From Anthopleura xanthogrammica (Eukaryota; Cnidaria; Anthozoa; Actiniaria; Actiniidae), in NCBI GenBank assembly GCA_964019055.1, contig OZ025211.1, positions 3,456,835-3,520,834 on the forward strand: 64,000 nt of DNA, read 5' to 3'. Made by a program: the position numbers and the translations under genes. Under the pieces are notes generated by a model. That model saw only the letters and a program-made list of their open reading frames with translations. It was not told where the DNA came from and did not search any database. This document shows positions 11,669 through 41,900 of this stretch, piece by piece; the first letter of the stretch is position 1; every line of letters starts with the position of its first letter.

Positions 11669-12691
11669 ATGGCCGACAACGTCTCTCAAATTTCCAGTCT
11701 TCAATCGAATAATTCAAGCCATAGTGCACCCTATATTGAGGATCACGCGTATTTTAGCGCAGAAGCGGATGTTTTCCCTCTTTTGGTGGCGTTCCTAATC
11801 ATCATGATAAACTCCTGGGTCATCATCCTGGTTTTAAAGAATAAACTTCTGAGGACCATCACAAACTTCATTCTGTCCAGCCTCGCGTTTTCTGACCTGT
11901 TGACAGGCTTGCTAAGCATTCCAATGTTTGTTTCATGCAACGTAGTCCGAACTTTACCATTTTGCATCACATCTGATGTATTTTTGAGATTCACGTCCAT
12001 CTCCACAGTTGCGCATCTTATGGCCGTCACATTCGACCGCTACCTTGCTATAATGCACTCCCTGAGATACGCTACCCTTATGACCAAGAGTCGAGCACTT
12101 TTCGGCCTTGCTTTCATCTGGGTTACCTCTGTTGGCATGTCCCTGATACACTTCAGTTGGACTTCTTTAACGACCGATACTGACGCGAAATCAAAAATGA
12201 GCGAATATGAGAAAGAAAACGAGATTCGTTATGATATTTTTTGTCTCATCGCGTACTTCTTTTTCCCGTTAATATTCATGATGTACGCTTATGGACGGAT
12301 CTTTTATCAGGTTGTGCGGCAGCGTAGGATCATGACCCGCAACAACCTCCCCGGCTACCAAGCTCATAATCGCCTCTCAATCGAAAGCCACAAATGGAAG
12401 GCCGCCATCATCTTTTTGGTTATGCTTCTGGTCTACACAATCTGCTGGCTGCCTTATTTTGCTTTTAGATTGCAGTACAACTACATGTTTCAAGATGGCG
12501 AAACAGTAGCCCTTACTGTAGCAATCCAGTATCTTATAGTCTATCAAAGATTTTGTACATCTTTATTCAACCCTTTGCTTTACATACTAGGAAAGCAAGA
12601 CTTTAGAAAGGCAATCCTAACGAGGTTCGAGAGAAGGCCCACCCGTTCATATACAGGATCGTCTTCATTGTTACGGTCAACTTATGTTTAA
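11669..12691 (+). CDS. Class A (rhodopsin-like) G-protein-coupled receptor
   Basis: Intronless frame of 340 residues. The ATG at 11669 lies in a CACCATGG context; the in-frame GTG seven codons earlier is not a likely start. The N-terminus has Asn-Val-Ser and Asn-Ser-Ser glycosylation sites. Seven hydrophobic segments are visible, with family landmarks: N48 in TM1, LAFSD (72-76) in TM2, C99 at the top of TM3, FDRY (122-125) at the TM3 end, W151 in TM4, CWLP (259-262) in TM6 and NPLLY (301-305) in TM7. The protein is therefore probably a plasma-membrane receptor coupling to heterotrimeric G proteins. The second extracellular loop (about 162-188) has no cysteine, so the usual disulfide to C99 seems absent, as in melanocortin- or lipid-type receptors. 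The C-terminus STYV fits a class I PDZ ligand. The activating ligand cannot be told. AATAAA follows the stop by about 50 bases. Confidence 0.93.
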   Translation: MADNVSQISSLQSNNSSHSAPYIEDHAYFSAEADVFPLLVAFLIIMINSWVIILVLKNKLLRTITNFILSSLAFSDLLTGLLSIPMFVSCNVVRTLPFCITSDVFLRFTSISTVAHLMAVTFDRYLAIMHSLRYATLMTKSRALFGLAFIWVTSVGMSLIHFSWTSLTTDTDAKSKMSEYEKENEIRYDIFCLIAYFFFPLIFMMYAYGRIFYQVVRQRRIMTRNNLPGYQAHNRLSIESHKWKAAIIFLVMLLVYTICWLPYFAFRLQYNYMFQDGETVALTVAIQYLIVYQRFCTSLFNPLLYILGKQDFRKAILTRFERRPTRSYTGSSSLLRSTYV

Positions 12692-17604: not shown

Positions 17605-20600
17605 TTAACGAACAAACACATTACCACGTGGCATTGCCACACCTTTCAACTGAGTCTGTTTACAATTCCCACAGGAATCATGAACCGGCCATCCTCGTAG
17701 TGTATCTCCATTGAAATCAATATAGCCATTAGAACATCTCTGGAATGGAGGTCCGATTCGACGCCTTGTAACTAGTCGAGGACCACACGTAGGCCCTCTT
17801 CGTGCGAGCATGGTCGGAACTATATCGCCACACTTTCCGATCACAATGCGAGCTACTTGACAATTAATCGATCCTTGCCTGTTTTTAACAAGATTCCCCA
17901 TGTTAGGCATGCAGGATATCCAGTTCATGATATTTGACTTGATCAAGAATTCTTCTCCAACCTTCGACCACAGAGAAAACAACATGGCGCCTGTTTGTTC
18001 TTCGCTCAGCGGAGTTGTTTCTGATTCCGGTTGGCAAACTTTGCCCTGTGCATGAGGTGTTCGGTTCCATTTAGGTAACGGAGTGACAGCGTTACTAACG
18101 CTATCAAAATTATTGTAATCAGTGAAGGTGTATGTCCAAACTAGTGTCCAGCCCCCTCCCGACGTTTCTTGGTCGCAGTAGGCCTTGAATGGTTTGTGTA
18201 TATTTGAACTGGCTGGTTTGATCAAATAGACACCAGAACGAGCATTGGGGTGAAGTGTTTTCAATGCTTTGCAGTTCTTAAATACCTTGTCTTTATAGGG
18301 CACTAAAATAAAAAGGGCATTTTTAATTTTTAGTCATGAGGCTTTGTAAAGATGTCGTAGGGCAATGGGAATGGGAAACATGATCACAAGCACAGGATTT
18401 CCCTAAGGTTCATCACTAGGACCGGGATTTAGATCACTGGGAATGGGAAATAGAATCACCACCACAGGATTTCCACAAGGTTCATCACTAGGACCGGGAT
18501 TTAGATCACTGGGAATGGGAAATAGAATCGCCAGCACAGCATTTCCACAAGTTCATGATTAAGGTCAATGGAACTGGAAACTAGAACCACTGACATGGGA
18601 TTTCTCCAAGGTTTATTACCAGATATGGGATTTTGGTCACTGGAAGTAAAAATAAAATCGCCAACATGGGATTTCCAGTCTAAATTTACTCTGACAAATA
18701 TTATGATGTTAGATTTTTACCGGCGCCGTGCAACAGGATTGAGTCTCTCCTTTAGGACTCTGACAAAGACAAGGCAAAGAAAACTGACAAGATAGCAGAT
18801 TTTGATCCTCTAATCTGTCAAGCAATATTTGAATTTAGATTATCAATAATACTATGCTTCACGTACCATGTTGTTTTCCAACTTCGGGTCCAAGCTGCAA
18901 ATAAGTAACATACACGTTCAGTAACACCACAAAAAAAAAACGAGTCACCCTACCTTATGAGAGACCATTCACATGAAGTTAAGGTGGCCCTGGTGCTAGC
19001 CGGGGGTGTTAGGGAAAAGTCTTTTGTTTTCCTTCCCCAGGAGACACCAAAAAACAAGAGTAAGCCCTAGGAGTAGGGTCACCCTACCTTATGAGAGACC
19101 ATTCACATGAAGTTAAGGTGGCCCTGGTGCTAGCCGGGGGTGTTAGGGAAAAGTCTTTTGTTTTCCTTCCCCAGGAGACACCAAAAAACAAGAGTAAGCC
19201 CTAGGAGTAGGGTCACCCTACCTTATGAGAGACCATTCACATGAAGTTAAGGTGGCCCTGGTGCTAGCCGGGGGTGTTAGGGAAAAGTCTTTTGTTTTCC
19301 TTCCCCAGGAGACACCAAAAAACAAGAGTAAGCCCTAGGAGTAGGGTCACCCTACCTTATGAGAGACCGTTCACTTGAAAATAGGGTGACCCTGGTGCTA
19401 GGGACGAATCTTTTGTTTTCCTTCCCCAGGGGACATGAACAATTAAAGTTACCCCTAGAGTAGGGTCACCCTTCCTTCATCCAATCATATAGGGTAATTC
19501 GTAACGCTAAGAGCGGTTTTCATGATGTGATTGGGAAAGATACGGTACTGACTTCCAGTCCATACACGATACGAAAAAATGCCGTAACTGTAATTCATCC
19601 GAACAGAACGCTTAGTTACAGTACGATACGGTACAGCTACAGTACTAGTACGGCTAAGAATTTGTACCCGGGGGGGGGGGGGGACTCCGGGGAAAAAGTA
19701 TCGGGTATGCTCGTCGTATCTCTTAGGGGTAAAAATCAGCGATTTGGTATCTTTTAGGGTCTTAAATTTGAGGTTTAGCAAATCAGCGCTTTCTGGTATA
19801 TTTTAGGGTGTTGAAAAAGGAACTAGCCCATCGCATAATAACGCAATACGTATGCCTGCGTAAACTCGGAATATTACTCAAGGAAAAACATTTCAAAAGC
19901 CTTTATTTTTTAATAGTATTATTTTTGTGGTATCTCTTAGGGGTTAACATTTGCCAAGCCTAGCCCTTTTGAAAAAACTTCCGGTATCTTTTAGGGGTAT
20001 TTTAGGAAATTTCCGACGAGCATACCCGATACTTTACCCCCTGAGTCCCCCCCCCCCCCCCCCCCCCCCCCGGGAATTTGTACCGTATCGTTTCCCGCTC
20101 ATTGGGAAACCGCTTTGAAGTCTTTATTTAATGAGGGTAGTAGCCCTCAAGATTGATGTATATTATTATTATATATTATATATAACATAGATTGATGTAG
20201 ATTATTCTTATTAGCTACTGAATTTCATAGCTTGGCTACTGCCTTTATTATAATCGAATCTTTAAGCACCAAAAAATAGAGAAAAACTCAACAACTCAAC
20301 TCAACGTGAAAAAAATAAGTGAGTAAATAAATGACTCACCATTTGTAAATGTGAAAACCTGCCATTAGCTTGAGAATAGTAAGAAGCTCTTTTCTCAATT
20401 TCTTCTTTATCAACTTTGTTCATTTTACTTAAGAAGCAGACGTTTTTCTCTTCATCGATGATTGCAGTCGTGCAAAACGACTTCCGCAGACACTTCAAGG
20501 CACAGCTTATTTTACTTTGAGGATCGTTCAGTATTTCCAATACCTTACCGTGTTTCACATCTGATCTGAAGCTATCCATGTATGACGTAATAGTATCTTT

Positions 20601-22871: not shown

Positions 22872-22982
22872 TATATAAAGGGAGCTGGTCCAGCAGGATT
22901 TCTTAACTTTCGAAACTCATTGTTCGGCATAGAATTTTTCAAGAATTAGCTTCAAGACTGTCAACTGATCTACCCAGTCAAG
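22872..22982 (+). promoter_or_regulatory. TATA promoter and untranslated exon 1 of peptide gene 1
   Basis: TATATAAAG at 22872, then a sequence shared by copies 1-4 (GGTCCAGCA, AAACTCATTGTTCGGCAT, TTAGCTTCAAGACTGTCAAC) ending at the donor AGTCAAG/GTAAATA, with exon end at 22982. Transcription would begin about 30 bases after the TATA. No ATG is used in this exon, so it is inferred to be 5' untranslated. The upstream word AAATATAAACCTGTTGCTG is also conserved among the copies. Confidence 0.75.
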
Positions 22983-23694
22983 GTAAATATACTATCATTT
23001 TCTAATATATATTCGGTGTATATTGAGAGGGGAACGAGGGTTAGATTCGGTTTCTGAGGTTATTTAGCAAATAAAACCCTTCTGGCGCCTTGGTTTTTAA
23101 CAGTTTTTGAAAACAATTTCGAAAACAAACAAAAAACTTCATTCACGAAACAACATGGATGCTTACCATTGAAGACATTTACAGCATACTTTGATCTTTT
23201 CGTGTTTCCTGGCGTAGTTTTCTCAACCAGTCTTTGTATTTTACTCTCACTTGTTTGTAAAAACCGAGTTTCTTTGTTTTCCGTGTTTTGTTTTGTTTTT
23301 CTTTTCTTTTTTAACGTTTTTCCCTTCTACTGGACGAATATCACTTCGGACGGGGGATATCGCCTAATACCCGTCCTGCACGTGACCCATTTGAACCAAT
23401 GACAGCGCGCGAAAACTCATCGTTGGGTTATAAAGGTGAATAATCGTAGATTGGTACACAGTATGCATCGCGGCGAATATGGTGATCAGGGGATGGAAGG
23501 AAAGAATGAAAACCGAATAATGAACGAAAGAAAAAATGAACGAAGAAGGGAGGGAGGGAGGGATAAAGATAAGGATTATTGAATAAAGAACATTTTATAT
23601 AACGATAGAAACAGTCGAAGTAAGAATGAACAGAAGAAAGGAATTATAGATTATAGTATAGTACAATACTAACATATTTCTATTCATCCACCAG

Positions 23695-24367
23695 ATGAAG
23701 AGTCTTATAGTTTCGCTGTTGTTTCTGAGCTGTGCGCTCTTCGTCTTCGCCAGTGACTCGAACGATGATGTAGAAGCAAAGAAGACGTCGATCATTCGTC
23801 CTCCTCCAAGGCCAATATCCAACTTATATCTCCCAGGGATTGTCATCAGTGCAAGCTCATTCAATATGGGTGTACGATACTGCTGGTGCTTTTCTTTTAA
23901 ATGCCACGGTAATGTCTATATATGATCGGACAATGTATAGTTATTCAATTTTGGGTTTTAGTGCATTCATAAATCACCCCAGATTGGTCTGACTCATTGA
24001 TCTTTTCTTATCTTCATCCATCTATCCATTTCGCACTCCTTCATTCCTTCTTTCCTTCATTCATTCCTTCCTTTCATTCCTCCTTCATTTCTTCCATTCC
24101 ACCCTTTTTCATTCCTTTCTTCCGTCCTTCATTTGGTCTATATATTCATATCTAATCAACCAACTAGCCAGCTATTCATTCAGTTGTTCCTTCCTTGTTC
24201 GTTCATTTATTTTTCTTGCGATTCTTCTCATTTTAATTTTTTTTTATTTCTCAGTTCCTGGGATGTATAATGGCTCCAAAGGCTGGATTATTAGCAACAA
24301 GAAGGGTTACTATGCAATCAATGGAAAGCTTTATATCATTTACCGATGTGACCAAAAGGGTTATTAG
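23695..24367 (+). CDS. Small secreted four-Cys protein, cluster copy 1
   Basis: Coding exons 23695-23908 and 24255-24367 join in phase 1 to give 108 residues. The splice acceptor directly abuts the ATG. A signal peptide (MKSLIVSLLFLSCALFVFAS) is followed by an acidic stretch (DSNDDVEAKK), a Pro/Arg linker (IIRPPPRP), a hydrophobic LYLPGIVIS segment and the core RYCWCFSFKC. The last exon adds [24 protein letters not shown] and RCDQKGY. The four mature cysteines fit C-x-C-x5-C-x(n)-C. I do not recognise the family; a secreted effector, matrix or antimicrobial role is possible but unproven. Intron 1 is about 0.7 kb, against about 0.13 kb in copies 2-4. No AATAAA stands at the position used by copies 2 and 3, where the word is AATAAG. 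Confidence 0.8.
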
Positions 24368-24520
24368 CTTGGATAAATTATTTCAAGTTTAAGAATATCG
24401 AACAATGTATTCAACATGGCTATAGTGGGTCAGTACTGCATATCTGTGATATCATGATAAGGTATAATTGAAATTAAAATAAGAAAAAATTCATAGAGAT
24501 GTGCTGTCATTTATTTTCTC

Positions 24521-24945
24521 ATCCATCCATCTATCCATCCATCCATTCATCCATCCATCCATTCATCTATCAATCCGTCCATCCATCCACCCACCCACCC
24601 ACCCCTCCATCCATCCATCCATCCATCCATCCATCCATCCCTCCATCCCTCCATCCCTCCATCCCTCCATCCCTCCATCCCTCCATCCCTCCATCCCTCC
24701 ATCCCTCCATCCCTCCATCCCTCCATCCCTCCATCCCTCCATCCCTCCATCCCTCCATCCCTCCATCCCTCCATCCCTCCATCCCTCCATCCCTCCATCC
24801 CTCCATCCCTCCATCCCTCCATCCCTCCATCCCTCCATCCCTCCATCCCTCCATCCCTCCATCCCTCCATCCATCCATCCCTCCATCCCATTAATCCATC
24901 CATCCATTATCCATCCATCCATCCATGATCCATCCATCCATCCAT
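24521..24945. repeat. (ATCC)n microsatellite converted to an 8-bp unit
   Basis: ATCC units flank a long core in which the unit is ATCCCTCC (about 24640-24862), i.e. two tetramers with one changed base. Both strands and all frames are open, giving repeat frames (HPSIPPSL or GWRDGGME) that are not genes. The 5' flank (ATAGAGATGTGCTGTCATTT) is the same as that of the pure ATCC array at 33.18 kb. Confidence 0.95.
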
Positions 24946-26150
24946 CCTCTATCTATTCATCCTTGTATCTAGAGTATCACTTAGCTTGTGGATCTCTGAT
25001 GATAACGTTGAAAGATGTATCACCAATAAAAACAACATGCACATCAAGCATAAAAATTGAATGAAGAAGGTTCAAGCACATTGAGTAATTATCAGTTTAT
25101 TCTGGTCGTTACAGTTCCTCAAATCTATCATTTTCTCCTTCCACTCGAAGCGTGCACTAAACTGTATAAGATCACGACAAGCCCGTTGTCCCCAAATAAA
25201 ACAATATCATGTGATCGATTTTAGCCAATGAGCGCCTTGAACTTTGGTCAGCGTACGAAGTTTCCATATTAACTATTCCCCCGTCGTTTTTTTCTTCGTT
25301 TTTTTGTTTTGTTTTTGTTTTGTTTTGTTTTTCTTCGTTTATTTTATTTTTATTTTTATTTTCAGTTTTCTTCTTGATTCCATAAAATACTCCTTTACAT
25401 TTTCGGCAAAATCACATATTTTCAAGATTCACTTTACAACTCTGCCAATATCGTGTATGAATTGATTATCAATACTATTTTAGTTGGTGAAGGAACGACA
25501 ATAGAATTCTTAATCCTGGGAATGTTTCTCGGATGGGTGGAAGACCATAGAAAATATGTATACCATTGGCCAAGACAATTGGTTACTTAAAACCCTTTTA
25601 TTTGAAAGCGTGCAGTCGTGATTTGAATATATTTAAGTATTCAAAATGGGATAGTTTCAACTCAACACTCATTTTGTGAAAATGACGGCGAGCATCGATG
25701 ATGACCTGTTTATCACTCAAAATATGTTCAGCAAAGTTTCTATACGGAGCTTCGATATTGACGATTTGTTGCCCGATTTGGAATTACGTGCTTGTGCTAC
25801 GATAGATACCGATGAATTCGTATGAAGAGGAAAGGAGAAACATTACAGTGGACCAAAATGGAGCACAGCTTGGTGTGTTATCACTGTTGTTACATGATAA
25901 GTACAACTCTTTATTGCATCCCGTTGAATTTGAGTTCTTGTTAGTATAATTAAAATTACGCAGAATTGCCGTGGTTTTGTTTGAGTAACTTAATTTAACT
26001 TAGTTACCTCGCATGCCAACGAGCTGTATATAGCTTAATGCCTCCGTTCTCGGTAACTAACTCTTACTTGATTGCATTACTATAGAAGCTAATTGCTCTC
26101 GTTTAACTACGTTTCAACAATTCAATCTAAAAATATAAACCTGTTGCTGT
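24946..26150. other. Intergenic stretch between peptide genes 1 and 2
   Basis: No gene. Holds the 3' flank shared with copy 3 (GATCTCTGATGATAACGT, TTCAAGCACATTGAG), a shortened copy of the upstream block at 25.24-25.48 kb and unrelated DNA at 25.5-26.05 kb. Confidence 0.6.
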
Positions 26151-26159
26151 GCTGGATGG

Positions 26160-26277
26160 TATATAAAGGGAGATGGTCCAGCAGGTCTTCTTCACTCAGA
26201 ACTCTGGAAACTCATTGTTCGGCATCGAATTTTTCAAGAATTAGCTTCAAGACTGTCAACTGATCTACCCAGTCAAG
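26160..26277 (+). promoter_or_regulatory. TATA promoter and untranslated exon 1 of peptide gene 2
   Basis: TATATAAAG at 26160. The exon 1 sequence is nearly the same as in copy 1, with a small insertion after the CAGCAGG word. The donor CAAG/GTAAATA ends the exon at 26277. Confidence 0.75.
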
Positions 26278-26406
26278 GTAAATATACCTTATATTTTAGT
26301 ACAATCTGGGGCTCATAATTTTTTCTTAGTCCATACAGTATGGTATGATCACATATGCATTTCACAGTATAGTACAATAATAACATATTTCTATTTATTC
26401 CACCAG

Positions 26407-27100
26407 ATGAAGAGTCTTGTAGTTTCGCTGTTGTTTCTGAGCTGTGCCTTCTTCGTCTTCGCCAGTGACTCGAACGATGATGTAGAAGCAAAGAAGACGT
26501 CGGTCGTTCTCCCTCCTGTTAAGCTTCCTCCCATCCGGATCCCATCACCCAACATCTATCTCCCAGGGATAGTCATCAGTACAAACTCGTTCACCCTGGG
26601 TGTACGGTACTGCTATTGCTTTTCTTTCAAATGCCACGGTAATGTCTAAGATGTATAGTTATTCAATTTTGGTTTTTAGAGCATTCATAAATCACCCCAG
26701 TTTGGTCTGACTCATTGATCTTTTCTTATCTTCATCCATCTATCCATTTTGCACTCCTTCATTCCTTCGGCTTCCTTCCTTCCTTCCTTCCTTCCCTTAT
26801 TCGTTCCTTTCATTCCTATTTCATTTCTTCCATTCCACCCTCTTTCATTCATTTCTTCCGTCCTTCATTCCGTCTATCCATTCATATCTAATCAACCAAC
26901 TAGCCAGCTATTCATTCAGTCGTTCCTTCCTTGTTCGTTCATTTATTTTTCTTGCGATTTTTCTCATCTTTTTTTTTTTTTTCTCAGTTCCTGGGATGTA
27001 TAATGGCTTCAAAGGCTGGATTATCAGCAACAAGAAGGGTTACTATGCAATCAATGGAAAGCTTTATATCATTTACCGATGTGACCAAAAGGTTTATTAA
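26407..27100 (+). CDS. Small secreted four-Cys protein, cluster copy 2
   Basis: Exons 26407-26638 and 26988-27100 in phase 1, 114 residues. The signal peptide MKSLVVSLLFLSCAFFVFAS is followed by DSNDDVEAKK. The Pro-rich linker is the longest of the cluster (VVLPPVKLPPIRIPSPN), then come IYLPGIVIST and the core RYCYCFSFKC, with Tyr instead of the Trp of copies 1 and 3. The last exon reads VPGMYNGFKGW, then [12 protein letters not shown], and ends RCDQKVY with TAA. AATAAA follows at 27211. The linker type pairs this copy with copy 4. Function unknown; secretion is inferred from the signal peptide and the absence of a second membrane segment. Confidence 0.8.
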
Positions 27101-27210
27101 CTTGGATAAATTATCTCAAGTTTAAGAATAGCAAACGATGTATTCAACATGGCTATAGTGGGTCAGTACTGCATATCTGTGATATCATGATAAGGTATAA
27201 TTGAGATTAG

Positions 27211-27216
27211 AATAAA
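27211..27216 (+). terminator. Poly(A) signal of peptide gene 2
   Basis: AATAAA about 110 bases after the stop, within a 3' flank shared by the copies. Copies 1 and 4 have AATAAG or AATAAC at this place. Confidence 0.55.
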
Positions 27217-27269
27217 CAAGAATTTTTAAAAAGACATGGGTACTGTCATATATATTTCTCGATAAGTAT

Positions 27270-28500
27270 GTTTTAGATAAAACACAATTTTCTATGGTTA
27301 CCAAAAAAAATGCATAATTTTACCTTTATTGTTTTATTTGGTATTTCGTGTTATTCGTTTGTTTATTTTTTGTTTGTTTGTTTGTTTGTTTTTTATGTTG
27401 TTGCTGTTATTGTTGTTGTTAATTATTTTGGATTTCTTTAATTTGTTTGTTTGTCTTGTTTTTTTCTTCTGTTTTTGGTAAGTAGTGTTGTTATTGTTTG
27501 AACTTTTTCGTCATGTTTTTCTTATATTAGTTTTTTCCCGCCGTTTTTTCTTCGTTTTTTTTTTTCTTTTTTTGTTTTTCTTCGTTTATATTATTTTTTA
27601 TTTTTTCATCATTTTTTTTCCAGTTTTCTTCTTCATTCCATAAAATATTCCTTAACATTTTCGGCAAAATCACATATTTTCAAGATTCACTTTACAACTC
27701 TGCCAATATCGTGTATGAATTGATTATCAATAATATTTATCATCCATATTTTTGGACATGATTTCCAAGGACAATTTTAGAAAAACTTAATGTCCTAGCA
27801 ACAAAAATGCTGACTCTTTTGTATAAACGATCTCGAAAACCGGGGGGGTGGGAAGGATATTAAAATTGTTATTAATGACCTGAAATCCAAAACGAAAAAT
27901 ACGGTATGTTGTTCAAGCGAGCAAAATCTTAAAGTGCACCTAAACCCTGATACGATACTTTTAGTATTGATTCTATATGAAGTGAATAGTTGAATGGTGA
28001 AATATTTCTTGATTTGAGTGTTGCGTTTTTAAGTTATGAAGGTTTATTTTTCCAATATGTTAATGACTGTGACGTCATCGCAAACTTTGAGTATATTTGT
28101 TTTACTCGTAATACTAAACACTGGCCATTACGACTCACCAAATTTACAGTAAACATTGTGGAAACCACGAGCATAATGATGATGCTTTTTAAATACTGTT
28201 TGTGTGAACCTGTTAAAGTTTGTATATTTCATGAAGTCTGCCATGATGTCACAGTCATTAACATATTGGAAGTATAAACCTTCATAACTTAAAGACGCAA
28301 CACTCAAATGAAGAAATATTTCACCATTCAACTATTCACTTCATGTATCCGATCAATACTGAAAGTATTGTATCTGGGGTTAGGTGCACTTTAATCTGCG
28401 TCATATGAATGATTACGATTAAAATTTTAAAATAGGACAGTCTTTAGATACAAAGTTCAAAAGTGCTGATGAAACTTTTTAAATATTTTCAACACTGCTG
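27270..28500. repeat. Upstream block of the duplication unit, copy 3, interrupted by a TTAA element
   Basis: Matches the blocks at 21.7-22.45 and 31.2-31.98 kb in word order, except for the 458-base insertion at 27933-28390. No gene of its own. Confidence 0.8.
27933..28390. mobile_element. TTAA-flanked long terminal-inverted-repeat element (piggyBac-type MITE)
   Basis: The ends are AGTGCACCTAAACCC and GGGTTAGGTGCACT. The inverted arms run about 147 bases each, including GTGAATAGTTGAATGGTG, AAATATTTCTT, GAGTGTTGCGT and TATGTTAATGACTGTGAC. TTAA flanks both sides (27929-27932 and 28391-28394). The paralogous blocks at 22369 and about 31870 carry a single TTAA in the same context (AAATCTTAATCTGCGTCAT and AAATTCTTAATCTGCGTCAT), i.e. 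the empty site. Open frames within are mirror images from the arms, not genes. TTAA duplication is typical of piggyBac-type transposition; the end sequence is not one I recognise. Confidence 0.88.
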
Positions 28501-28618
28501 ATGTTGCTCAAGATGGTTAATAATATCAATTGACTGCATTACTATAGAAACTATATTTACTTTCGTTTAACCACGTTTCAACAATCTAAAAATATAAACC
28601 TGTTGCTGTGCTGGATCT

Positions 28619-28729
28619 TATATAAAGGGACCTGGTCCAGCATGATTTCTTAACTTTGGAAACTCATTGTTCGGCATCGAATTTTTCAAGAATTAGCTTC
28701 AAGACTGTCAACTGATCTACCCAGTCAAG
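28619..28729 (+). promoter_or_regulatory. TATA promoter and untranslated exon 1 of peptide gene 3
   Basis: TATATAAAG at 28619, the shared exon 1 words, and the donor CAAG/GTAAATA with exon end at 28729. Confidence 0.75.
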
Positions 28730-28856
28730 GTAAATATATCTTATAGTTTAGTATAATCTGGGGCTCAGAATTGTTTCAGAGTCCATACAGTATGGTATGA
28801 TCACCTATCCATTCACAGTATAGTACAATAATAACATATTTCTATTCATCCACCAG

Positions 28857-29533
28857 ATGAAGAGTCTTGTAGTTTCGCTGTTGTTTCTGAGCTGTGCGCT
28901 CTTCGTCTTCGCCAGTGACTCGAACGATGAAGTACCAGCAAAGAAGAAGTCGATCATTCGTCCTCCTCCAAGGCCAACATCCAGCTTATATCTCCCAGTG
29001 ATTGTCATCAGTACAAGCTCGTTCAATCTGGGTGTACGATACTGCTGGTGCTTTTCTTTTAAATGCCACGGTAATGTCTATATATGATCGGACAATGTAT
29101 ATACAATTTTGGTTTTTAGTGCATTCAATACTGAATCACCCCAGATTGGTCTGACTCATTGATCTTTTCTTATCTTCATCCATCTATCCATTTCGCACTC
29201 CTTCATTCCTTCTTTCCTTCATTCATTCCTTCCTTTCTTTCATTTCTTCTTCATTTCTTCCATTCCACCATCTTCCATTCCTTTCTTCCGTCCTTCATTC
29301 CGTCTATCCATTTATATCTAATCAACCAACTAGCCAGCTATTCATTCAGTCGTTCCTGGCTTCCTTGTTCGTTCATTTATCATCATCCTTCATTCATCTT
29401 AATTTTTTTTTATTTCTCAGTTCCTGGGATGTATAATGGCTACAAAGGCTGGATTATCACCAACAAGAAGGGTTATTATGCAATCAATGGAAAGCTTTAT
29501 ATCATTTACCGGTGTGACCAAAAGGGTTATTAG
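28857..29533 (+). CDS. Small secreted four-Cys protein, cluster copy 3
   Basis: Exons 28857-29070 and 29421-29533 in phase 1, 108 residues. The signal peptide is as in copy 1. The acidic stretch is DSNDEVPAKKK, followed by the linker IIRPPPRPTS, LYLPVIVIST and the core RYCWCFSFKC. The last exon has [23 protein letters not shown] and RCDQKGY. The Trp-containing core and IIRPPPRP linker place it with copy 1, although copy 2 lies between them. AATAAA is at 29644. Function unknown. Confidence 0.8.
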
Positions 29534-29643
29534 CTTGAATAAGTTATCTCAAGTTTAAGAATATCGAACAATGTATTCAACATGGCTATAGTGGGTCAGT
29601 ACTGCATATCTGTGATATCATGATACGGTATAATTGAGATTAG

Positions 29644-29649
29644 AATAAA
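29644..29649 (+). terminator. Poly(A) signal of peptide gene 3
   Basis: AATAAA about 110 bases after the stop, matching the position in copy 2. Confidence 0.55.
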
Positions 29650-32090
29650 CAAGAGTTTAAAGACATGGGTACTGCCATATATTTTCTCGTCCTCCGTCCG
29701 TCCATTCAAGCAGTCAACCATCCATCCACATATCAACCCATTTTTTCATCCATCCATTCATCCCATTAATCTATCCATCCATCCATCCCCTCCCTACCTA
29801 TCCATCTCTGTATCTAGAATATCACTTGTGGATCTCTGATGATAACGTGAAAGCGGTATCATCAATAAGAAGACCATGTACATCCAGCATAAAAACTGAA
29901 TGAAAAAGGTTCAAGCACATTGAGCAGTTATCAGTAAAGTTTATTCTGGTGCTAAAGTTATGCAATCTTTCTTTTGATGAAGCCCTAGCTTTTAGATATT
30001 TCGAGTTCATTACAACAACGAACAAGAGTGTTTTTCAACAGAAAGTATAAAGTATTCTTAACAAAGTCCAACGATGTAGAACTTATGTGGATACCGCAAT
30101 CTTAGAATAGTTTAGAGTTAAATTGGGAAATCTTAAAATAGATTTTGGATATACGTGTTGCTGTGTAGGTTATTTTTATCAACCTGCATTTTTTGACGTT
30201 TTTTTAAAATGTTTATTGCAGTATTTTCCTCCATTTTTGGACAACCAACTAATCCGTAATATAATTTAGTTAAAGGCAGAAATAGAAGTACACAGTCAGT
30301 AACCGCAATAATAGTACATTGTGACGGCTTTGACGATCAGTTCAACAGGTAAAACAAGAGAAACTGTACGGGACCGGTCATTATTTATCGCCTGGGGGGT
30401 CGGGGGGTCGGAGGGTTTTACTTAAAAGCAGCAAAATTCAACTGACCCCCCTTGAAACATACTAAAATTTTGGTGCCCCGCCCCCTCTTAAGTATTGCTA
30501 ATTTTAGTGAAACACCCAACCCCCCTCCTCCTACTCCCAATGCGACTTTTTAAGGAATTATCATTATTTAACGTGGGCAAAGTTCATTATATCTTACAGC
30601 AGAGTGGCTGAAAAATTATTGAGGAGCATTAAGGTGGTTCAACTGAGCAGTCGTTCAAGCAGGGTTCTGAAAGGCGCTGAGGTGACAGCGAGTCCAGGGC
30701 AGAACCCTGGTGGGGGAACAGGGTGCAAAGCCCCCGAGCGCTCACAGACTTTTAACGCTTTAGGAGCGTTTTTCGGCATAAAAAATTCGTATTGTTAAAT
30801 ACTAATTCAACAAAAAGCATTGGAATCTCAAATAATCGAAAAACTGAGACCGATGCAGGGCCGTAGCCAGACTGACATCGTTACCGAGGCAATCGACCCC
30901 CAAAGCCGAAAGCAGCTAGCTAGGGGGTGCGGGGGCACCAGGGGACACCAAAAACAAGAGTTAGCCATACCAGTATAGGGGCACCCTACCTTATGAGACA
31001 CCGTTCACGATACTTAATCATTCAACGCCCTCGACTTTAGCATCTTTTTTGCTTGTTGGCGTTTTAGGAATATTTATCAGCTATTTTTAAACAGGAACTT
31101 GAATGTTTTAGTATAGAAACCTACTTTTCGTTTTATTATATTGTTTGACATTACCTTATTTTTCTGTTGATTTTAAGGTTGATTTTATCTATTTATCAAT
31201 TATCGATAAGTATGTTATAGATAAAACACAATTTTCTATGGTTACCAAAAAAAATGCATAATTGTACCTTTATTGTTTTATTTGGTATTTCGTGTTATTG
31301 GTTTGTTTATTTGTTTGTTTGTTTGTTTGTTTGTTTGTTTTTTATGTTGTTGCTGTTCTTGTTGTTGTTAATTGTTTCAGATTTCTTTAATTTGTTTGTT
31401 TGTCTGTTTTTTTCTTCTGTTTTTGGTATGTAGTGTGGTTATCGTTTTAACTTTTTCGTCATGTTTTTTTTATATTAGTTTTTTCCCGCCGTTTTTTCTT
31501 CGTTTTTTTCTTTTTTTTGTTTTTCTTCGTTTATATTGTTTTTTATTTTTTCATCCTTTTTTTCCCAGTTTTCTTCTTCATTCCATAAATACTCCTTTAA
31601 CTTCTCGGCAAAATCACATATTTTCAAGATTCACTTCACAACTCTGCCAATATCGTGTATGACGTGATTATCAATAATATTTATCATCTATATTTTTGGA
31701 TATGATTTCCAAGTATAATTTTAGAAAAACTTAATGTCCTAGCAACAAAAATGCTTACTCTTTTGTATAAACGTTCACGAAAACCAGGGAAAAAAGGATT
31801 TTAAAATTGTCTTTAATGACGTGAAATCCAAAACGAAAAATACGGTATGTCGTTCGAGCGAGCAAATTCTTAATCTGCGTCATATGTATGATTACAATGA
31901 AAATTTAAAAAATAGGACAGTCTTCAGATACAAAGTTCAAAAGTGCTGATGAAACTTTTCAAATATTTTCAACACTGCTGATGTTATTCAAGTTGGTTAA
32001 TAAAATCAATATTGTTTGCATTACTATAGAAACTATGACTTGCTCTCGTTAAACCACGTTTCAACAATCTAAAAATATAAACCTGTTGCT
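29650..32090. other. Intergenic stretch between peptide genes 3 and 4
   Basis: No gene. Contains the shared 3' flank (29.82-30.15 kb), a G-rich then C-rich stretch (30.39-30.54 kb), one unit-like piece of the 134-bp repeat (30.93-31.00 kb) and the upstream duplication block (31.02-31.98 kb). Confidence 0.6.
30930..31005. repeat. Solitary copy of part of the 134-bp repeat
   Basis: The words GGGGACACCAAAAACAAGAG, GGGGCACCCTACCTTATGAGA and CACCGTTCAC match the array at 18.94-19.48 kb. The repeat is therefore dispersed and the array arose by local amplification. Confidence 0.65.
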
Positions 32091-32101
32091 GTGCTGGATG
32101 G

Positions 32102-32212
32102 TATATAAAGGGAGCTAGTCCAGCATGATTTCTTAACTTTGGAAACTCATTGTTCGGCATCGAATTTTGCAAGAATTAGCTTCAAGACTGTCAACTGATC
32201 CACCCAGTCAAG
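32102..32212 (+). promoter_or_regulatory. TATA promoter and untranslated exon 1 of peptide gene 4
   Basis: TATATAAAG at 32102, the shared exon 1 words, and the donor CAAG/GTAAATA ending the exon at 32212. Confidence 0.75.
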
Positions 32213-32341
32213 GTAAATATACCTTATAGTTTAGTATAATCTGGGGTTCCTTTTTTTTTCTTAGTCCATTCAGTATGGTATGATCACATATGCATTTCAC
32301 AGTATAGTACAATAATAACATATTTCTATTCATTCCACCAG

Positions 32342-33028
32342 ATGAAGAGTCTTGTAGTTTCGCTGTTGTTTCTGAGCTGTGCGATCTTCGTCTTCGCCAG
32401 TGACTCGAACGATGAAGCACCAGCCAAGCTACTCCCACCTCCTCTTCCTCCTAAACCATCACCCAACATTTATCTCCCAGGGATTGTCATCAGTACAAAC
32501 TCGTTCAATCTGGGTGTACGATACTGCTATTGCTTTTCCTTCAAATGCCACGGTAATATCTATGATTGGACAATGATTGTTATTCAATTTTGGTTTTTAG
32601 AGCATTCATAAATCACCCCAGTTTGGTCTGACTCATTGATCTTGTCTTATCTTCATCCATCTATCCATTTCGCACTCCTTCATTCCTTCCTTCCTTCCTT
32701 CCTTCCTTCCTTCCTTCCTTCATTCATTCCTTCCTTTCATTCCTCCTTCATTTCTTCCATTCCACCCTCTTTCATTCCTTTCTTCCGTCCTTCATTCCGT
32801 CTATCCATTCATATCTAATCAACCAACTAGCCAGCTATTCATTCAGTCGTTCATTCCTTGTTCGTTCATTTATTTTTCTTGCGATTCTTCTAATTTTAAT
32901 TTTTTTATTTCTCAGTTCCTGGGATGTATAATGGCTTCAAAGGCTGGAATATCAACAACAGGAGGGGTTACTATGCGGTCAATGGAAAGCTTTACATAAT
33001 TTACCGATGTGACCAAAAGGGTTATTAG
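32342..33028 (+). CDS. Small secreted four-Cys protein, cluster copy 4
   Basis: Exons 32342-32552 and 32916-33028 in phase 1, 107 residues. The signal peptide MKSLVVSLLFLSCAIFVFAS is followed by DSNDEAPAK. The compact Pro linker (LLPPPLPPKPSPN) precedes IYLPGIVIST and the core RYCYCFSFKC. The last exon is VPGMYNGFKGW, NINNRRGYYAVNG, RCDQKGY. The Tyr core and PSPNIYLPG place it with copy 2. A second, intact version of the last exon lies 0.5 kb downstream (33512-33630) and could be used as an alternative end. Function unknown. Confidence 0.78.
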
Positions 33029-33177
33029 CTTGGATAAATTTATTTGTTAATTCAAGTTTGACTGAGAATATTGAACAATGCATTCAACGTTGGGTCAGTA
33101 CTGAATATTTGTGACAAGGTATAATTGAGATTAAAATAACAAAGAATTCATAGAGATGTGCTGTCATTTATTTTCTC

Positions 33178-33362
33178 ATCCATCCATCCATCCATCTATC
33201 CATCCCCCATCCATCCATGCATCCATCCATCCATGCATGCATCCATCCACTCACCCATCCATCCATCCATCCATCCATCCATCCATCCATCCATCCATCC
33301 ATCCATCCATCCATCCATCCATCCATCCATCCATCCATCCATCCATCCATCCATTCATTCAT
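33178..33362. repeat. (ATCC)n microsatellite
   Basis: Nearly pure ATCC units with a few GCATGC interruptions on the left. It has the same left flank as the array at 24.52 kb. The repeated HPSI and MDGW frames are artefacts. Confidence 0.95.
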
Positions 33363-33511
33363 ATCTAATCAACTAAGTCGCCAGCAGCATTTGATATATA
33401 GTTTTTTCGTTCCTTTGTTCGTTTGCATATCTATTTATTTTCTTACGATTCTTTTATTCTTTTCCTATGATCTTACTGATGCCTTACAAGGTTTGAATTT
33501 TTTCTTTTCAG

Positions 33512-33630
33512 TTCCTGGGATAATAAATGGACTCAAAAACTGGATTAGTAACAACATGCAGAAGGGTTACTATGCAATCAATGGAAAGCTTTACATCATT
33601 TACCGATGTGACCAAAAGTCGAGTTATTAG
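33512..33630 (+). CDS. Extra last exon of the peptide family (alternative exon or orphan)
   Basis: A polypyrimidine tract and CAG acceptor precede a phase-1 exon of 119 bases encoding [34 protein letters not shown] and KSSY before TAG. It is intact, has the family's splice phase and ends in the family's 3' flank, but no TATA, exon 1 or signal exon lies between it and copy 4. It may be an alternative terminal exon for copy 4, or the remnant of a fifth close copy whose 5' part was lost. The substitutions ([11 protein letters not shown], two added residues before the final Tyr) are larger than among copies 1-4. Confidence 0.65.
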
Positions 33631-36200
33631 CTTGGATGAATTTATTTGTTAATTTAAGTTTAACTGAGAATATTGAACAATGCATTCAACGTTGGGTCAG
33701 TACTGAATATCTGTGATAAGGTATAATTGAGATTAAAATAAGAAAGAATTCATAGAGATATTTCAAGTAAATTGCAACGACGAACAAGAGAGTTTTTCAA
33801 CAGAAAGTATAAAGTATTCTTAACAATATCCAACGATGTAGAACTAATGTGGATACCGCAATCTTAGAATAGTTTGGAGTTAAATTAGGAAATCTTAAAA
33901 CAGATTTTGGATACGTGTTGCTGTGTGTGGGTTATTTTTATCAACCTGCAATTTTTGGCGTTTGTTGCAGTATTTTTCCCCATTTTTGGACACTCAACTT
34001 ATCCTTAATAATATTGATTGAGAAGCAGAAATAGATGTACCAGGGGCGTATCTTCCTCTACGCAAATACGCACGTCCGTACTTGAGATTTACTGTGGTGT
34101 CATTGTTACTACCCTGGCGACTCGGGAAAAGGTTATTTCTTTGTTACAAAATAAGGTTACAGTCACGTGACCGCTTTTTACCAACTTATCTCGCGCGTGT
34201 TGTACATTTTTTCACTTGCCCTGATGATGGACGCTTTGTGCGAAAGCTTGGAGATTTATTAAATCTTCACGTGGTTGTAACTTTATTTTGTAACATGGAT
34301 AAACCCACGTACAATGGTATTCTTAATCGGTTATTTGATTATTTTATTTTCCCACTCAATAATGAATATCATAGTAAATGTATACAAAATATCAAAAACC
34401 TCTGCTGAAAATCTAGATTTATCTCAGATATAAACTTTTATAAGTCAATTTTCGCAGGCTTCATGACACCTCAGTTTTGCAGCGACGTCATTTCTACGTC
34501 ACCTTTTCAGATCAGCTGGAAGGTAGTTTAAGTATCAAAGAGACCAAATGTCAGTTCTATCCTAATAAGGTAAAATGGAAGTTAGCAAAAGTCTAGAAAT
34601 TTCTAGAAATTAATTTATTTTAAAGTCCAAACTTAGTAACATTCATTAAAACTAACAGGAGTGTACAGAACTTTTAAAAAAAGTGTATTGCATCATCGGA
34701 GTCTTACGTGAGCATCATTACGTCAAATGCGTGGTCAAGTGAAAAAAAAATAAAGAGCATTATAATTGTAATACTCTGCTTCTCTTTCCTGAGAAAAACA
34801 ATCATTCATAATTAACATTTACTGATTGAATTTATACCTAGTACATATGCATAAAGGGAAAAAATAAAAGAAATAAAGTATGAATGAAGTTTACGCCAAA
34901 ATTTCGACGTCATTCCAGCGTTGTAGCGGTGAAGAAAAGTGTAAAATAATACAATTAGTTATGTAAGGTTAAAACAGTTCACCAACAGTCTAATACCCCC
35001 ACGTTGCAGGGAAGTACGCATACGAAATCATTCTGCTTGGCCTTTGCCCCGCCTCAGTGCGTCATTAAGTGCGCTGTAAACGGCTGACTAGAGTACACAC
35101 GACTCACAGCTAAACTTTATCCTGAATAGCAAGACTGAAGTAACGATATATTAAATGTTAGCTTCTTTTATTCTATACTTCCAGGATTATGTCTTTTATT
35201 TCTTGATATCTTTATTGTAGGGGCAATAATAAGGGTGATAATCAAAGCAGAATACTTAAGGGTGGTGGTTGTTAAATATTATAATAATATGACATACTGC
35301 GCATGCGCAGATGCATTAGGCAAATGACTCGAGCTAAAAGCTAAGCATCTTTTTCCTGTACGTCTTTCCACTGATTCATTTATCATTTTCGTAAGGAAAC
35401 TTTACACCGGTGAATTCCATATTAGTTTTATAATCAGTCTTAGTGTTTTGTTTGATAACTCAGCCAAAATGTCTGATAAACCATTTAAAAACAAGTTAAA
35501 GAAGTTTCTATCTTGTTTACGTATCGTCCACTGACACGTGAATAGTAAGAGCCACGTATAGATAAATAAATAGTATATTCTCGATTCTTCATATACTACT
35601 TGAGAGCCATTAATAAGATATTTAAATACCACGCCTTGATAGGTCGGTGCTCATTGACCATGAAAAAAATATAAGATGCAAAAAGCTAAGATTCTTAATA
35701 CTTTTGAAACCTTTGATTCCAACTTTAGAAATTGTTCTAGGATTTAGAGTGATATTTACTGAAAATGTAGATTGCTGGTAGCTTTGCTCTGTCTTCATGA
35801 CCAAACATTTAAAGCTAACTAAATTAATGATATTATCGTTTGATACCAGCTCTCAAAATGTTATCCAATAAGGTTAAAGTGATGTTTAGAAATTACATTG
35901 CCAATGGCAAGTTTGGTCTATTGCACTACCAACAATTAAAAGCTAAAAATATTTAATGAATCTTTTCATTCAAAGTGCAAGCTATTTTTGCATTGTCATG
36001 ACTGATATTGTGGACGTCTTTAAAAAGAACATAACCATTGGTAGCTTTGCTTCGCTTCACTGCCATTGACGTGAACTTCGTGAATGAAAATTGTCCCAAT
36101 ATCAGAATTTTACGTTTGAAGCCCTCTTTGGGCTCCACTGAACTGTTTAATTCTTTATCATTGCATAAAACTACCTAAAATAACTTCAATGATTTTTCTA
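33631..36200. other. Intergenic stretch before peptide gene 5
   Basis: No gene. Contains the cluster's shared 3' flank (33.77-33.96 kb) and a dispersed repeat (34.1-34.56 kb) also found just upstream of SHQ1. The 108-residue frame at 34082 lies in that repeat and shows no domain. Confidence 0.6.
34110..34560. repeat. Dispersed repeat, long copy
   Basis: The words GCGACTCGGGAAA, GGTTATTTCTTT, CTCAATAATGAATA, TTTATCTC, GATATAAACTTTTATAA, ATGACA and TCAGATCAGCTGGA recur in the same order at 47.17-47.36 kb, where about 200 internal bases are missing. Confidence 0.7.
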
Positions 36201-36209
36201 AAATGCTTG

Positions 36210-36336
36210 TATAAATAAAGGCTTCTCTTGACGGATTGCTAGTTCGACTCTGGACTTCGGAATCGTCAAGAGCTTAAGGCGAACAATCGCACCAAAGTAG
36301 CAGAAAAACCGGCTAGAAAAATCGTCCAAGAACAAG
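36210..36336 (+). promoter_or_regulatory. TATA promoter and untranslated exon 1 of peptide gene 5
   Basis: TATAAATA at 36210 and, about 127 bases on, the donor AACAAG/GTAAGCA (exon end 36336). The sequence does not resemble exon 1 of copies 1-4, but the arrangement is the same. Confidence 0.55.
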
Positions 36337-36706
36337 GTAAGCACAGACATTGTTTATTCATTCATCGAGTAATTTGTCATTTGGTAATCAATTATTCTGA
36401 AAATGAACACGGTTTTTCCAACCTGACTAAATTTTCTTGTGAGCTGAAGATCGCATATTGAAAACCGTATATTGTATTGCGGGTCTACGACGCGCCGTGC
36501 GACAAATTCAGCTCGTCATTTAGAAACCAAAAAATAACGTTAACATAATTGTCTATCTACCTATTTATAGTTACAGCTTTTATCATTCATTCTTTCAAAA
36601 AAATGAACAAATTAATTTTAAAATAATATCGTAATATTCATGCTCAGAATAACGACAAGTAGACGTTTTTTTTTTCACGATTTCGTTTTTCAACTTTTTT
36701 CCGCAG

Positions 36707-37649
36707 ATGAAATATCTTGCAGCTCTTGTCCTTCTCGTTTTGAGTTGCGGACCCCTCGTTCGAGCTGAAGCTGAGAAATTAGAGAAGGAAGAAGTGCCAG
36801 TGGACGAAGTTCATGACGAGGCTGTTGTGAACACAAAAAGGCTTGTAAAACATACTTTAATCTCTATTCCTCTGATCGTTGACCCGAAGGATCCTGTCAA
36901 CTTACGTAAACGATACTGCTACTGTTTCCAACGTCGATGCAACGGTAAGAAATTTTTTTAATTCCTAATTCTTCCTTCCTTTCTTTCTTTTTTTCTTTCC
37001 TTTTCCTTTTTCTTTCTTCCAACTTTTTGCTATTTTGTCTCTTTTACTTTCTATACTATTTACTCTTTTCTCCTCCTCTTCTTCTTCTTCTTCCTTCCTT
37101 CTTTGTCTTCAATACTTAAATGTTTAGTCAAACTCCAAAAGATGTCACCTCAGACTTTAGACCACAAACGTTTGTGCATGTCCTTGTAGGTTTGTCTCAG
37201 TGCAAGGAAAATATCGTAAGACCCCGGTTATAAGCACACTAGTCTGCTAACACAAATATCCTTCCAGTTATGAGCCCCCCGGTGACCCCCGGTTATGAAT
37301 CCACTGGTAAACCCCGGTTATAATAAGCCCCCCCCCCCCCCCCGGTTATAAACGCACCTCTGGTATCTCGCGTCAGTGTTCATGTTCATATTTGCTCTTC
37401 ACGGTTTCACGGTATCACACAGTCAACAAGACAGTATAAGTATAAACCTACAATATAAACACAACTTAATATTCATTCATTCCCACCCATTCATTCATTT
37501 GTTCGTTCATTCATTTTATATCAGTTCCTGGTATGGAGAATGGAGTACAGGGATGGTCAGTGCAGAACCAGCAAGGTTATGTAGTGCTCTCTGGGAAGCT
37601 CTACCGCTTCTCTCGATGTGATGTTTCTAAATATAGGAGAGGTCGCTAA
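36707..37649 (+). CDS. Small secreted four-Cys protein, divergent cluster copy 5
   Basis: Exons 36707-36944 and 37525-37649 in phase 1, 120 residues. The acceptor again abuts the ATG. The signal peptide (MKYLAALVLLVLSCGPLVRA) is followed by an acidic propeptide-like stretch (EKEEVPVDEVHDEA), a basic segment (TKRLVK), LISIPLIVDP and NLRKRYCYCFQRRC. The LRKR just before the first Cys looks like a dibasic cleavage site, suggesting a mature peptide starting at YCYC; copies 1-4 have VRY there. The last exon has VPGMENGVQGW, QQGYVVLSGKLYRF and SRCD, ending with a basic YRRGR tail. Cysteine spacing and splice phase match the family although overall identity is low. Function unknown. Confidence 0.75.
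37215..37350. repeat. Short decayed repeats with CCCCGGTTAT words
   Basis: CCCCGGTTATAA or close variants occur four or five times within 130 bases of intron 2 of peptide gene 5, one after a C run. Confidence 0.55.
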
Positions 37650-37789: not shown

Positions 37790-37872
37790 AGACGTGGCGG
37801 CCATGTTGGTGGTATTAACAAAGGTGGCTACTAAGAAATCATTTGTTGAATATCACCATGGCGACTATGACG
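37790..37872. repeat. Short foldback with GGCGGCCATGTTGG end, copy 2
   Basis: GGCGGCCATGTTGGTGG ... TCACCATGGCGAC; similar to the copies at 15.2 and 42.7 kb. Confidence 0.5.
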
Positions 37873-38980: not shown

Positions 38981-41900
38981 CTAACAGTCAACAACATTTC
39001 CATCATCATCAACAAATTCCGCAAAACAACCACCACAAGATCTGGTTCTACATTTTGCTTGAGGATACGAAGGACAGTGAGATACTTGACAGGGATCAAC
39101 CAAGCATCGCGGGACTACCAGCTCTCCGGCATGGCACGAGCAGCGAGTTGTAATACTGTAATTGTATTGGTCAAAAAATTCGGCGTTACAACCTCCACAG
39201 TAATTTGACTGGCATTTGTTGTTGGGATAGGCTGGGCAGGAGGTCACGTCGCAAGGGTTAGCAAAACACTTGACCAAAGTGGAACCATCGGGGCATTCTT
39301 GAAATGAAAAAACAAAATAGCATAATGGGTTAAGAAGGTGTATAAGATAAATTGTTAGAGGGTTAGGGAAAAGACAACAAGCTAGTGTTCTCCCCAAGCT
39401 AGTGTTATGGTTCCTTCGATATTAGATACAAAAAGATATGATAAATTAGACTAAAGTCAAACGTCGAACTTCACATGAGCCGAACCTAATGCAGCAAAGA
39501 GGACCACCTTATTCGACGTTTGATCAGAGCCTTAGATCCGCAGTTCGCACAGGATATGATTTAAATACCTCTTTAGGAACAACTCATTTGCAACTACAGT
39601 GCATGATAGTCCATGAGGTCTAATTCAAGCGGCATAAACAGTACATTATTTTACTTGAGTGATCCCAGTTATCTTGGACTGGAATGTTTACCTGGTTTCT
39701 TGGGTCCACAAAGACTTTGGCAACTTTTCTTGTTCAAGAAATTATTTCCATTCGACTGGCAACCACCGTAAATGAAAGTGCGACACCTTTTCAAGGTGTT
39801 GTCGAAATACCAACGTCTAAAGGCAGCACGACAAGGCCCGACTTTCTTCGGTAAGAAACAAGCTGACGGCGATAGCCGAACTGTGAATAAGGGAGTAAAA
39901 ATTAGGACTGAACATAGGAGGCAAAGTTATATTCAACGCTGTTCAAAATGCCTCACGTGTGTCCAAGTCTGCGACTGATTGTCGCACGCGTCGCTGTTGT
40001 AGGAATACGACTTTTTTTTTTCTTTTTCACACACCTCCGCTTAGAAAACTGGAGGCCTATATACTGAATACTGCTCTTAGAAAATATACATGTGTTATTT
40101 AGACTGGTCTTACAGGTGATTAGAATACTTTGATGCAATAGCGTCGTAGATAATTACTTGCGCATTGTAGGAAAAACGTTCGCGTCCTGATGCTTAGCCT
40201 GAGAAAACAAAGTCGTCGGCACGAGCGCATTTTTTTTCGTGCGTGAACGGTCGCCAACGTAGTTGACGTCTTCGGCAGGACATGAAAATGCTGCAAATGG
40301 CGTTTTGATGCTAAATCACTGTAATATAAGCACAGTATAACCAGCCAATCAGCCCGCGCATCATATCTCTAACATAATATATCTATATCTATAATATATA
40401 CCTTATTACATGAAATTATCGCGACACGTATTTCATGTAATAAGGTATTACTAGGTGCATCAAATAGTTCATTACTTGAGAGTTTTTTAGTAGCTTTTTT
40501 GGACGCAGCATTCAGGTGTTTCAGTAACATGTTAAGTTGCTCTACTTCGTGTTGTGTAAGAGGAGAGGAATAGACACTTTTCAGCGTCTTCATTGACTGT
40601 ACTGCCTGGTAAAATTCACCTTCAAACCAAAAAATATAAAAATATAAATTTAGAATTCCGGTAACTTGAACATAACGAGCTTAAAATCTTTTACAAGCCA
40701 AGTTTGACTTCCTCAAGCAAAACACACCAAAAATATTTGAGTACCACATTTGACAATTATAAATGATTAAGGTTATACTATTATTTAACTCAAAAGGGCA
40801 GATAATTTTCGAGTGGTACAAAGTTACGATATACTACAGACGTGCTGTACCGTTACCGTGATAGTGACGTTTCAGACCATTTGATTGGATAAACAGTAAT
40901 ATCGCGCAGAGTGACTTGGTTGATAGAAATCATCTTTTCCCGTTACCGTGCCGTGCGCGCAATTTCTCACTCGGCTCTAAAATTATCATTACACTATTGC
41001 GCTCATATTGGATATGGACTCAGTATAAAGCAAATCCAATAATCTCAACAGTATTTGAGAACAATAGCCTTAAGAATAATGAAACACATGGGTGGCTTAC
41101 TTTTAAAAGCAAGAACATCATCTTCGTCAGCAGAATCTCCTCCCAAGTTGGACGAAGCCTGTAAAAAAAATCAACAGTCGAAAAAAATATCAAGGATTGA
41201 TGGGCCGAGACGAGTGAAAAACGCACTGCGCATGCTCTAAAATTTGTCGTGTTTACAAAGAAAACCATTGGAGATTTACCGGCGTTTAGTAAATCTCTAA
41301 AATTAAGGCCGTTCGTGGAAAGTTAGTGCTTATTTTTTCCTGACACATTGCTTTAGTTGTTTTCTTTCCGTGGTCAAATAATACAAGAGAAATTCGCATA
41401 ATACAAGACATGTAAATCTCCAATGGTTTTCTTGGTAAACACGACTCGTCTATGAATTTTCTGCCGAACTTTCGAGCATGCGCAGTGCGTTTTTCACCCG
41501 TGTCGGATGGGCCTTATTTTCCGTCCATACGGCGCCTCAGCTTCTGCTTCAGATTATAAGACCGATACTTACCGACTGTATGATTCTTGACAACGCGTTG
41601 CTCATTTTCAGGAATGCCCTGCAAACGGAAATTACTTTATATAAACATGTTATCCAGCTCTACTCTGCTTCTTATTTTTACTCCGACGAAGGGCAACTGT
41701 CTGAAACGTACGAGTACGAATACGAGAGTTTGTCGCTAAAAATCTTCCACTACAAACTCGCTCGATAGTTATCGTTCTCTGTTTGGCACAACACATTTCT
41801 AAGACAACAGACAAGGGAAACTACGAGTTTGTAGCAGCATACTTTAAAAGGAATATTCTCGTAGTCGTAGTCGTAGTTGTTCTTGTAGTCAAATCTAAAG

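Follow-up and report, generated by a model that had tools for sequence, protein, structure and literature searches.

A tandem cluster of putative secreted four-cysteine preproproteins in the sea anemone Anthopleura xanthogrammica

Background

Lineage-restricted secreted peptides of sea anemones are a known kind. The SA8 peptides, as described in the available part of PMC10210398, are small secreted cysteine peptides specific to Actiniaria and can expand in tandem. The SA9 peptides, or boundless beta-hairpins, have four cysteines and KR sites in the precursor, and the ShK peptides have six cysteines (available part of PMC11299110). PMC6627431 names nine anemone neurotoxin folds; as far as its available text goes, just two of them are described as having two disulfides, the boundless beta-hairpin and PHAB, a peptide of 17 residues. 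Here we analyse a window of 64,000 nucleotides from A. xanthogrammica (assembly GCA_964019055.1, contig OZ025211.1, positions 3,456,835 to 3,520,834 of the forward strand); all coordinates below refer to this whole stretch. At 22872..37649 it contains a tandem cluster of five genes, G1 to G5, predicted to encode a family of secreted preproproteins. This family is new within the known kind.

SA8 spacing is ShK-like, whereas the spacing in the cluster is C-x-C-x4-C-x32-C, which places the family outside SA8; the core has four cysteines. An SA9 precursor typically contains several short domains, whereas here there is one long mature part, a comparison made by description only. Short four-cysteine domains split by KR sites were not found in the cluster family. 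Neither the boundless beta-hairpin nor PHAB, as presented in the available text of PMC6627431, resembles a peptide of 71-84 amino acids with the spacing observed here. Equinin B relates to another locus of Actinia tenebrosa, according to the available part of PMC11051070.

Results

The five genes lie on the plus strand and encode proteins of 108, 114, 108, 107 and 120 amino acids, as established by reading the sequence and assembling the exons. The first-pass annotation of the window had proposed such a row of genes, and this is confirmed. The hydrophobic, signal-like N-termini, read directly from the sequence, agree with the proposed secretion. The core RYC[YW]CF, also noted earlier, is present in all five genes. 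However, the cysteine spacing had been given as C-x-C-x5-C, and it is C-x-C-x4-C-x32-C in five of five. The complete family members have spacings 1,4,32 (8/10) or 1,4,34 (2/10).

Protein searches yielded seven relatives in total: two from A. tenebrosa, one each from Actinostola and Exaiptasia, and three further archive sequences; two of the last three seem to be genomic DNA translated through an intron. The four named proteins (A. tenebrosa LOC116286538 and LOC116286539, Actinostola QZH41_006415, Exaiptasia AIPGENE8638) are all annotated as 'uncharacterized' or 'hypothetical'. They match at E from 7.6e-49 to 9.3e-30, the closest named matches being those from Actinia, and have full-length homology with the same cysteines and the same core. 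In common alignment columns the pattern Y-C-x-C-F-x3-C...VPG-x-x-NG-x-x-GW...R-C-D is invariant. By homology and this motif, the cluster belongs to the actiniarian LOC116286538/9 family.

A tree of ten sequences, with the relatives P0006 and P0007 left out, splits the family into two subfamilies (support 96/98). Subfamily A includes G1-G4, LOC116286538 and the Actinostola and Exaiptasia proteins; subfamily B includes G5, LOC116286539 and the relative P0005, the latter on a long branch. Within B, the grouping of G5 with LOC116286539 has support of only 81/76. The two subfamilies are found side by side both here and in A. tenebrosa, where the relatives are two consecutively numbered loci. Four copies of A are present here, as against a single A cluster detected in each of the other species; the searched protein database is clustered at 90% identity, which could hide near-identical copies. 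The Actinostola A member is spread over two contigs.

In the genome of A. xanthogrammica (290 Mb), all matches at E <= 0.001 to G3, G5, P0005 and P0004 lie within the cluster; these counts are lower bounds, only the best candidates having been scored. A weak match on contig 9 (E 0.0885) was dismissed on reading the surrounding sequence, as it seems to be part of an intron that continues into an exon of some other, larger gene. Scans of viral and prokaryote contigs gave no relative. So far, the family appears only in sea anemones. The absence elsewhere is a weak result, since the protein search relies on exact 5-residue words, and since one repeat search returned the query alone and another lost the Exaiptasia member. 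A coral skeletal matrix protein, an option raised earlier when the calicoblast was listed among the possible expressing cells, was set aside, since all four named relatives come from sea anemones, which have no skeleton.

The precursor anatomy was compared in eleven sequences, the five genes of the cluster and six relatives; P0006 was left out as an intron read-through, and P0007 is incomplete. The end of the signal was fixed at residue 20, and the cut points were chosen by eye. The order of elements is a signal, an acidic pro-piece, a dibasic pair (8/11) and a basic mature part, whose core is aromatic. The pro-piece has a net charge of -1 to -8 in all eleven sequences and ends in KR in five, in KK in three and in a single K in three. 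The mature part consists of a variable arm and a conserved aromatic four-cysteine core. In the ten complete sequences it has 71-84 amino acids and a net charge of +6 to +13, and the core contains 8-12 aromatic residues. The arm contains 5-10 prolines in subfamily A and 2-3 in subfamily B. Cleavage at a basic pair immediately upstream of the YC core was also weighed but rejected, since no such pair is conserved at that position. The earlier annotation made no mention of an acidic pro-piece, a dibasic site or a basic mature part; as predicted features, these fit a processed defence or venom peptide.

No described family had been recognised for these proteins, and indeed Pfam, NCBIfam, PDB sequence and fold searches gave no significant match. 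The sole row in the Pfam-A scan of G1, G4, G5 and P0001-P0005 was DUF1980 (E 0.078), which is below the curated threshold (13.9 bits against a cut-off of 25.9). The sole row in the NCBIfam scan of G1-G5 was NF038227, in one member (E 0.058). The PDB sequence searches produced chance rows alone, a bacterial toxin chain (E 0.81) and a dihydroorotase (E 2.6). AlphaFold models the core of both subfamilies as one four-stranded beta-sheet with the strands placed alike, the core blocks having predicted local confidence (pLDDT) of 72-89 and 86-94 in the two models. Foldseek found no match at E <= 0.001 for the subfamily A model in BFVD and PDB, nor for the subfamily B model in PDB. Main texts of the literature, supplements being outside the search, gave no match to the locus names or motif words of the family, and no such family was noticed in topical literature listings.

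Each of the five genes has a TATA box, then a short exon 1 ending in CAAG/GTAA (the slash marks the splice site). In G1 the TATA box TATATAAA (22872..22879), aligned in G1-G4, precedes exon 1 (22900..22982), whose start was placed from the TATA box and whose 3' end is CCCAGTCAAG/GTAAAT. Exon 2 (23695..23908) encodes the signal, pro-piece, linker and first three core cysteines, and the terminal exon (24255..24367) is followed by ATTAAA at 24473. The TATA box, exon 1 with inferred start, exon 2 and terminal exon are at 26160..26167, 26190..26277, 26407..26638 and 26988..27100 in G2, at 28619..28626, 28648..28729, 28857..29070 and 29421..29533 in G3, and at 32102..32109, 32131..32212, 32342..32552 and 32916..33028 in G4. 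In G5 the TATA box (36210..36217) was read by eye, exon 1 (36240..36336, start likewise inferred) ends in AACAAG/GTAAGC, and exon 2 and the terminal exon are at 36707..36944 and 37525..37649. All these features are on the plus strand, and the coding exons come from the exon assembly. The archive sequence P0006 contains an exon nearly identical to exon 2 of G5 (4/79 residues differ, counted by eye).

Several details of the first-pass gene structure stood in five of five genes: CAG directly abuts the ATG, the phase-1 end of exon 2 lies one residue past the third core cysteine, and the terminal exon starts with VPGM-NG--GW. The latter motif has 7 matches against 0.88 expected, and 7 were reached in none of 100 shuffles. 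Six matches are the five genes and the orphan exon described below; the seventh, at 37805, has 3 mismatches and is taken as chance. The common promoter layout is present in all five genes, but the sequence can be aligned in G1-G4 only (mean column identity 89% over promoter and exon 1). The promoter and exon 1 of G5 have no convincing similarity to those of G1-G4, and in blastn the G5 unit had no match to G1, while its matches to G2-G4 were confined to short pieces of intron repeats.

Exon 1 had been called untranslated. Its splicing is supported by the A. tenebrosa gene model P0001 (LOC116286538), and its untranslated status is probable. The last 33 nucleotides of exon 1 of G1 encode in frame LQDCQLIYPVK, as in P0001, where the 11 residues before MKSL are the exact translation of exon 1 of G1-G3; exon 1 of G4 is one base off in this stretch. 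Thus the gene model has its junction between exon 1 and the ATG exon in the same position. Its longer N-terminus is probably an annotation overreach, as the same frame here meets TAG.

The proposed recent tandem growth applies to G1-G4, whereas G5 comes from an older subfamily. The longest blastn piece in each pair of G1-G4 has DNA identity of 84.8-91.8%. The contrast of a conserved core and a variable linker, as first described, is borne out in G1-G4 by the ratios of nonsynonymous to synonymous rates (dN/dS) and by codon counts. In all six pairs the core has dN/dS 0.14-0.28, which implies purifying selection, and the pro-piece with linker has 0.38-2.98. Codons variable in amino acid make up 17/37 of the pro-piece and linker as against 8/48 of the core (Fisher P = 0.004, gapped columns left out). 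Columns with silent changes only do not differ (3/37 and 9/48, P = 0.22). From the higher dN/dS and the variable codons it follows that the arm is relaxed or diversifying, the numbers being too small to say which. The signal peptide is conserved within G1-G4 (2/20 codons variable in amino acid), but not between these genes and G5.

A sixth, orphan terminal exon, unmentioned earlier, lies at 33512..33630 on the plus strand. Its reading frame is open and ends in CDQKSSY-stop, and it has its own acceptor, 3' flank and ATTAAA at 33732. The 3' flank is 96% identical to that of G4 over 137 nucleotides, and in the segment GYYA..DQK 0-1 of 18 amino acids differ from the exons of G1-G4. The start differs at 4/11 amino acids, Asn replacing Gly of GW. 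The orphan exon may be a remnant of a sixth copy or an alternative last exon of G4. Its sequence suggests gene conversion, because the 5' part has diverged and the 3' part with the 3' flank is nearly identical to the other copies.

Other elements were observed within and around the cluster. Between G2 and G3 there is an inverted repeat with arms 27974-28087 and 28234-28347 (114 nucleotides, 93% complementary, 146 nucleotides apart), which looks like a small foldback element or miniature inverted-repeat transposable element (MITE). Just downstream of the cluster, on the minus strand, the frame 39669-39926 encodes a Kunitz/BPTI domain (Pfam E 2.4e-19); it is adjoined by a cysteine-rich frame, 38981-39421 (-), which carries CGGC in two repeats and matches nothing in Pfam. 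A 134-bp unit is repeated 3.4 times at 18944-19401 (98% match), and a similar stretch was seen by eye near 30940-31010. The octanucleotide TCGGTCAG occurs in about 103 copies at 43555-44380 (99% match), leaving three plus frames open, and a 42-bp minisatellite at 52949-54127 (28 copies, 94% match) leaves hundreds of codons open on both strands. An open frame of 352 amino acids at 11633-12691 (+) matches rhodopsin-type G-protein-coupled receptors (Pfam 7tm_1, E 1.5e-39).

Discussion

The genes may encode a processed cationic peptide acting like a host-defence peptide. We adopt this reading tentatively, as the likeliest of those considered but possible rather than probable. On its way through the secretory pathway the precursor would be cleaved at the dibasic site, the beta-sheet would be held by two disulfides, and the cationic peptide would be released at the epithelium or in mucus. 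It could then bind to anionic surfaces of microbes, with an arm that adjusts the target and a core that stays constant; tandem growth would raise the dose and diversify the arm. The penaeidins of shrimp offer an analogy, although they have six cysteines rather than the four found here. They combine a cationic, proline-rich N-terminal part with a cysteine-rich C-terminal part (available part of PMC11767717). This layout is seen in subfamily A and not in B, and the likeness, drawn from description, concerns the way of working and not homology.

Several points weigh against a host-defence peptide. G4, P0001 and P0005 have no dibasic pair, and the proline-rich arm is a trait of subfamily A, since the arm of subfamily B has few prolines. 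The predicted template modelling (pTM) scores of the AlphaFold models are low (0.43 and 0.50), and the two models are not independent, because most alignment rows are common to both and the pTM is low. The dN/dS values rest on few changes, 2-8 nonsynonymous ones per core pair. A basic charge and KR sites are just as common among anemone toxins, and a signalling or structural protein would suit a conserved core too.

One possibility is a venom or acrorhagial toxin, that is, a new disulfide scaffold acting on ion channels of prey or competitors and duplicated like SA8. It agrees with the relatives being in sea anemones only, with the tandem expansion and with a small secreted cysteine peptide having a dibasic site; precedents are the SA8 and Nv1 clusters and the novel cysteine frameworks in anemone venom, described in the available parts of PMC10210398 and PMC5673964, respectively. 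However, we consider a toxin somewhat unlikely, as constraint is tighter on the mature core (dN/dS 0.14-0.28) than on the pro-piece and linker, unlike in a fast-evolving toxin, and the last inter-cysteine loop is long, 32 residues. Toxins usually diversify in the mature core. Nor is there an obvious match to the nine neurotoxin folds of PMC6627431, whose available text gives few of the spacings, or any match to the locus names and motif words in literature main texts.

The purifying selection on the core, and the adjacency of the two subfamilies both in A. tenebrosa (LOC116286538 and LOC116286539) and here, would also suit an anemone-specific secreted signalling or developmental ligand, with the core binding a receptor and the arm serving as a spacer. 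Still, such a ligand is unlikely: the arm evolves freely, no known ligand family was matched in the Pfam and NCBIfam scans, and the number of copies apparently differs between species (four of A here and one A cluster in A. tenebrosa, where the 90% clustering may hide copies). Quite unlikely is a component of mucus or mesoglea matrix, a basic peptide that cross-links or binds polyanions. The 8-12 core aromatics and basic charge of the ten complete sequences favour it, as do neighbours encoding extracellular domains (Kunitz, CUB, fibrinogen-like), although neighbours alone are weak evidence, and the dibasic processing site, the small size and the lack of repeats within the protein argue otherwise. 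A decayed remnant of some known domain, such as one half of a Sushi/CCP module or a blade of an olfactomedin beta-propeller, is highly improbable, and the Sushi half-module was rejected, PF00084 giving no row at E <= 10 in G1, G4, G5 and P0001-P0005, with the limit that HMMER filters drop most weak matches.

Returning to host defence, it is doubtful, but conceivable, that the family forms a structural class new among the host-defence peptides of animals: a four-stranded sheet standing on its own, stabilised by the C-x-C-x4-C-x32-C cysteines, with a fast-evolving arm, born within anemones, with dibasic release, tandem diversification and possibly alternative terminal exons. If they prove antimicrobial, the peptides would enlarge by one the set of scaffolds known from anthozoans; as venom components they would instead extend the nine neurotoxin folds given in the available text of PMC6627431 (2019). 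The exons, precursor anatomy and predicted fold are now defined for a family named only 'uncharacterized' or 'hypothetical' in anemone records, and the conserved core with a free arm leads to clear predictions on maturation and target binding. Finally, the apparent difference in copy number between related anemones provides a usable case for the growth of young secreted families.
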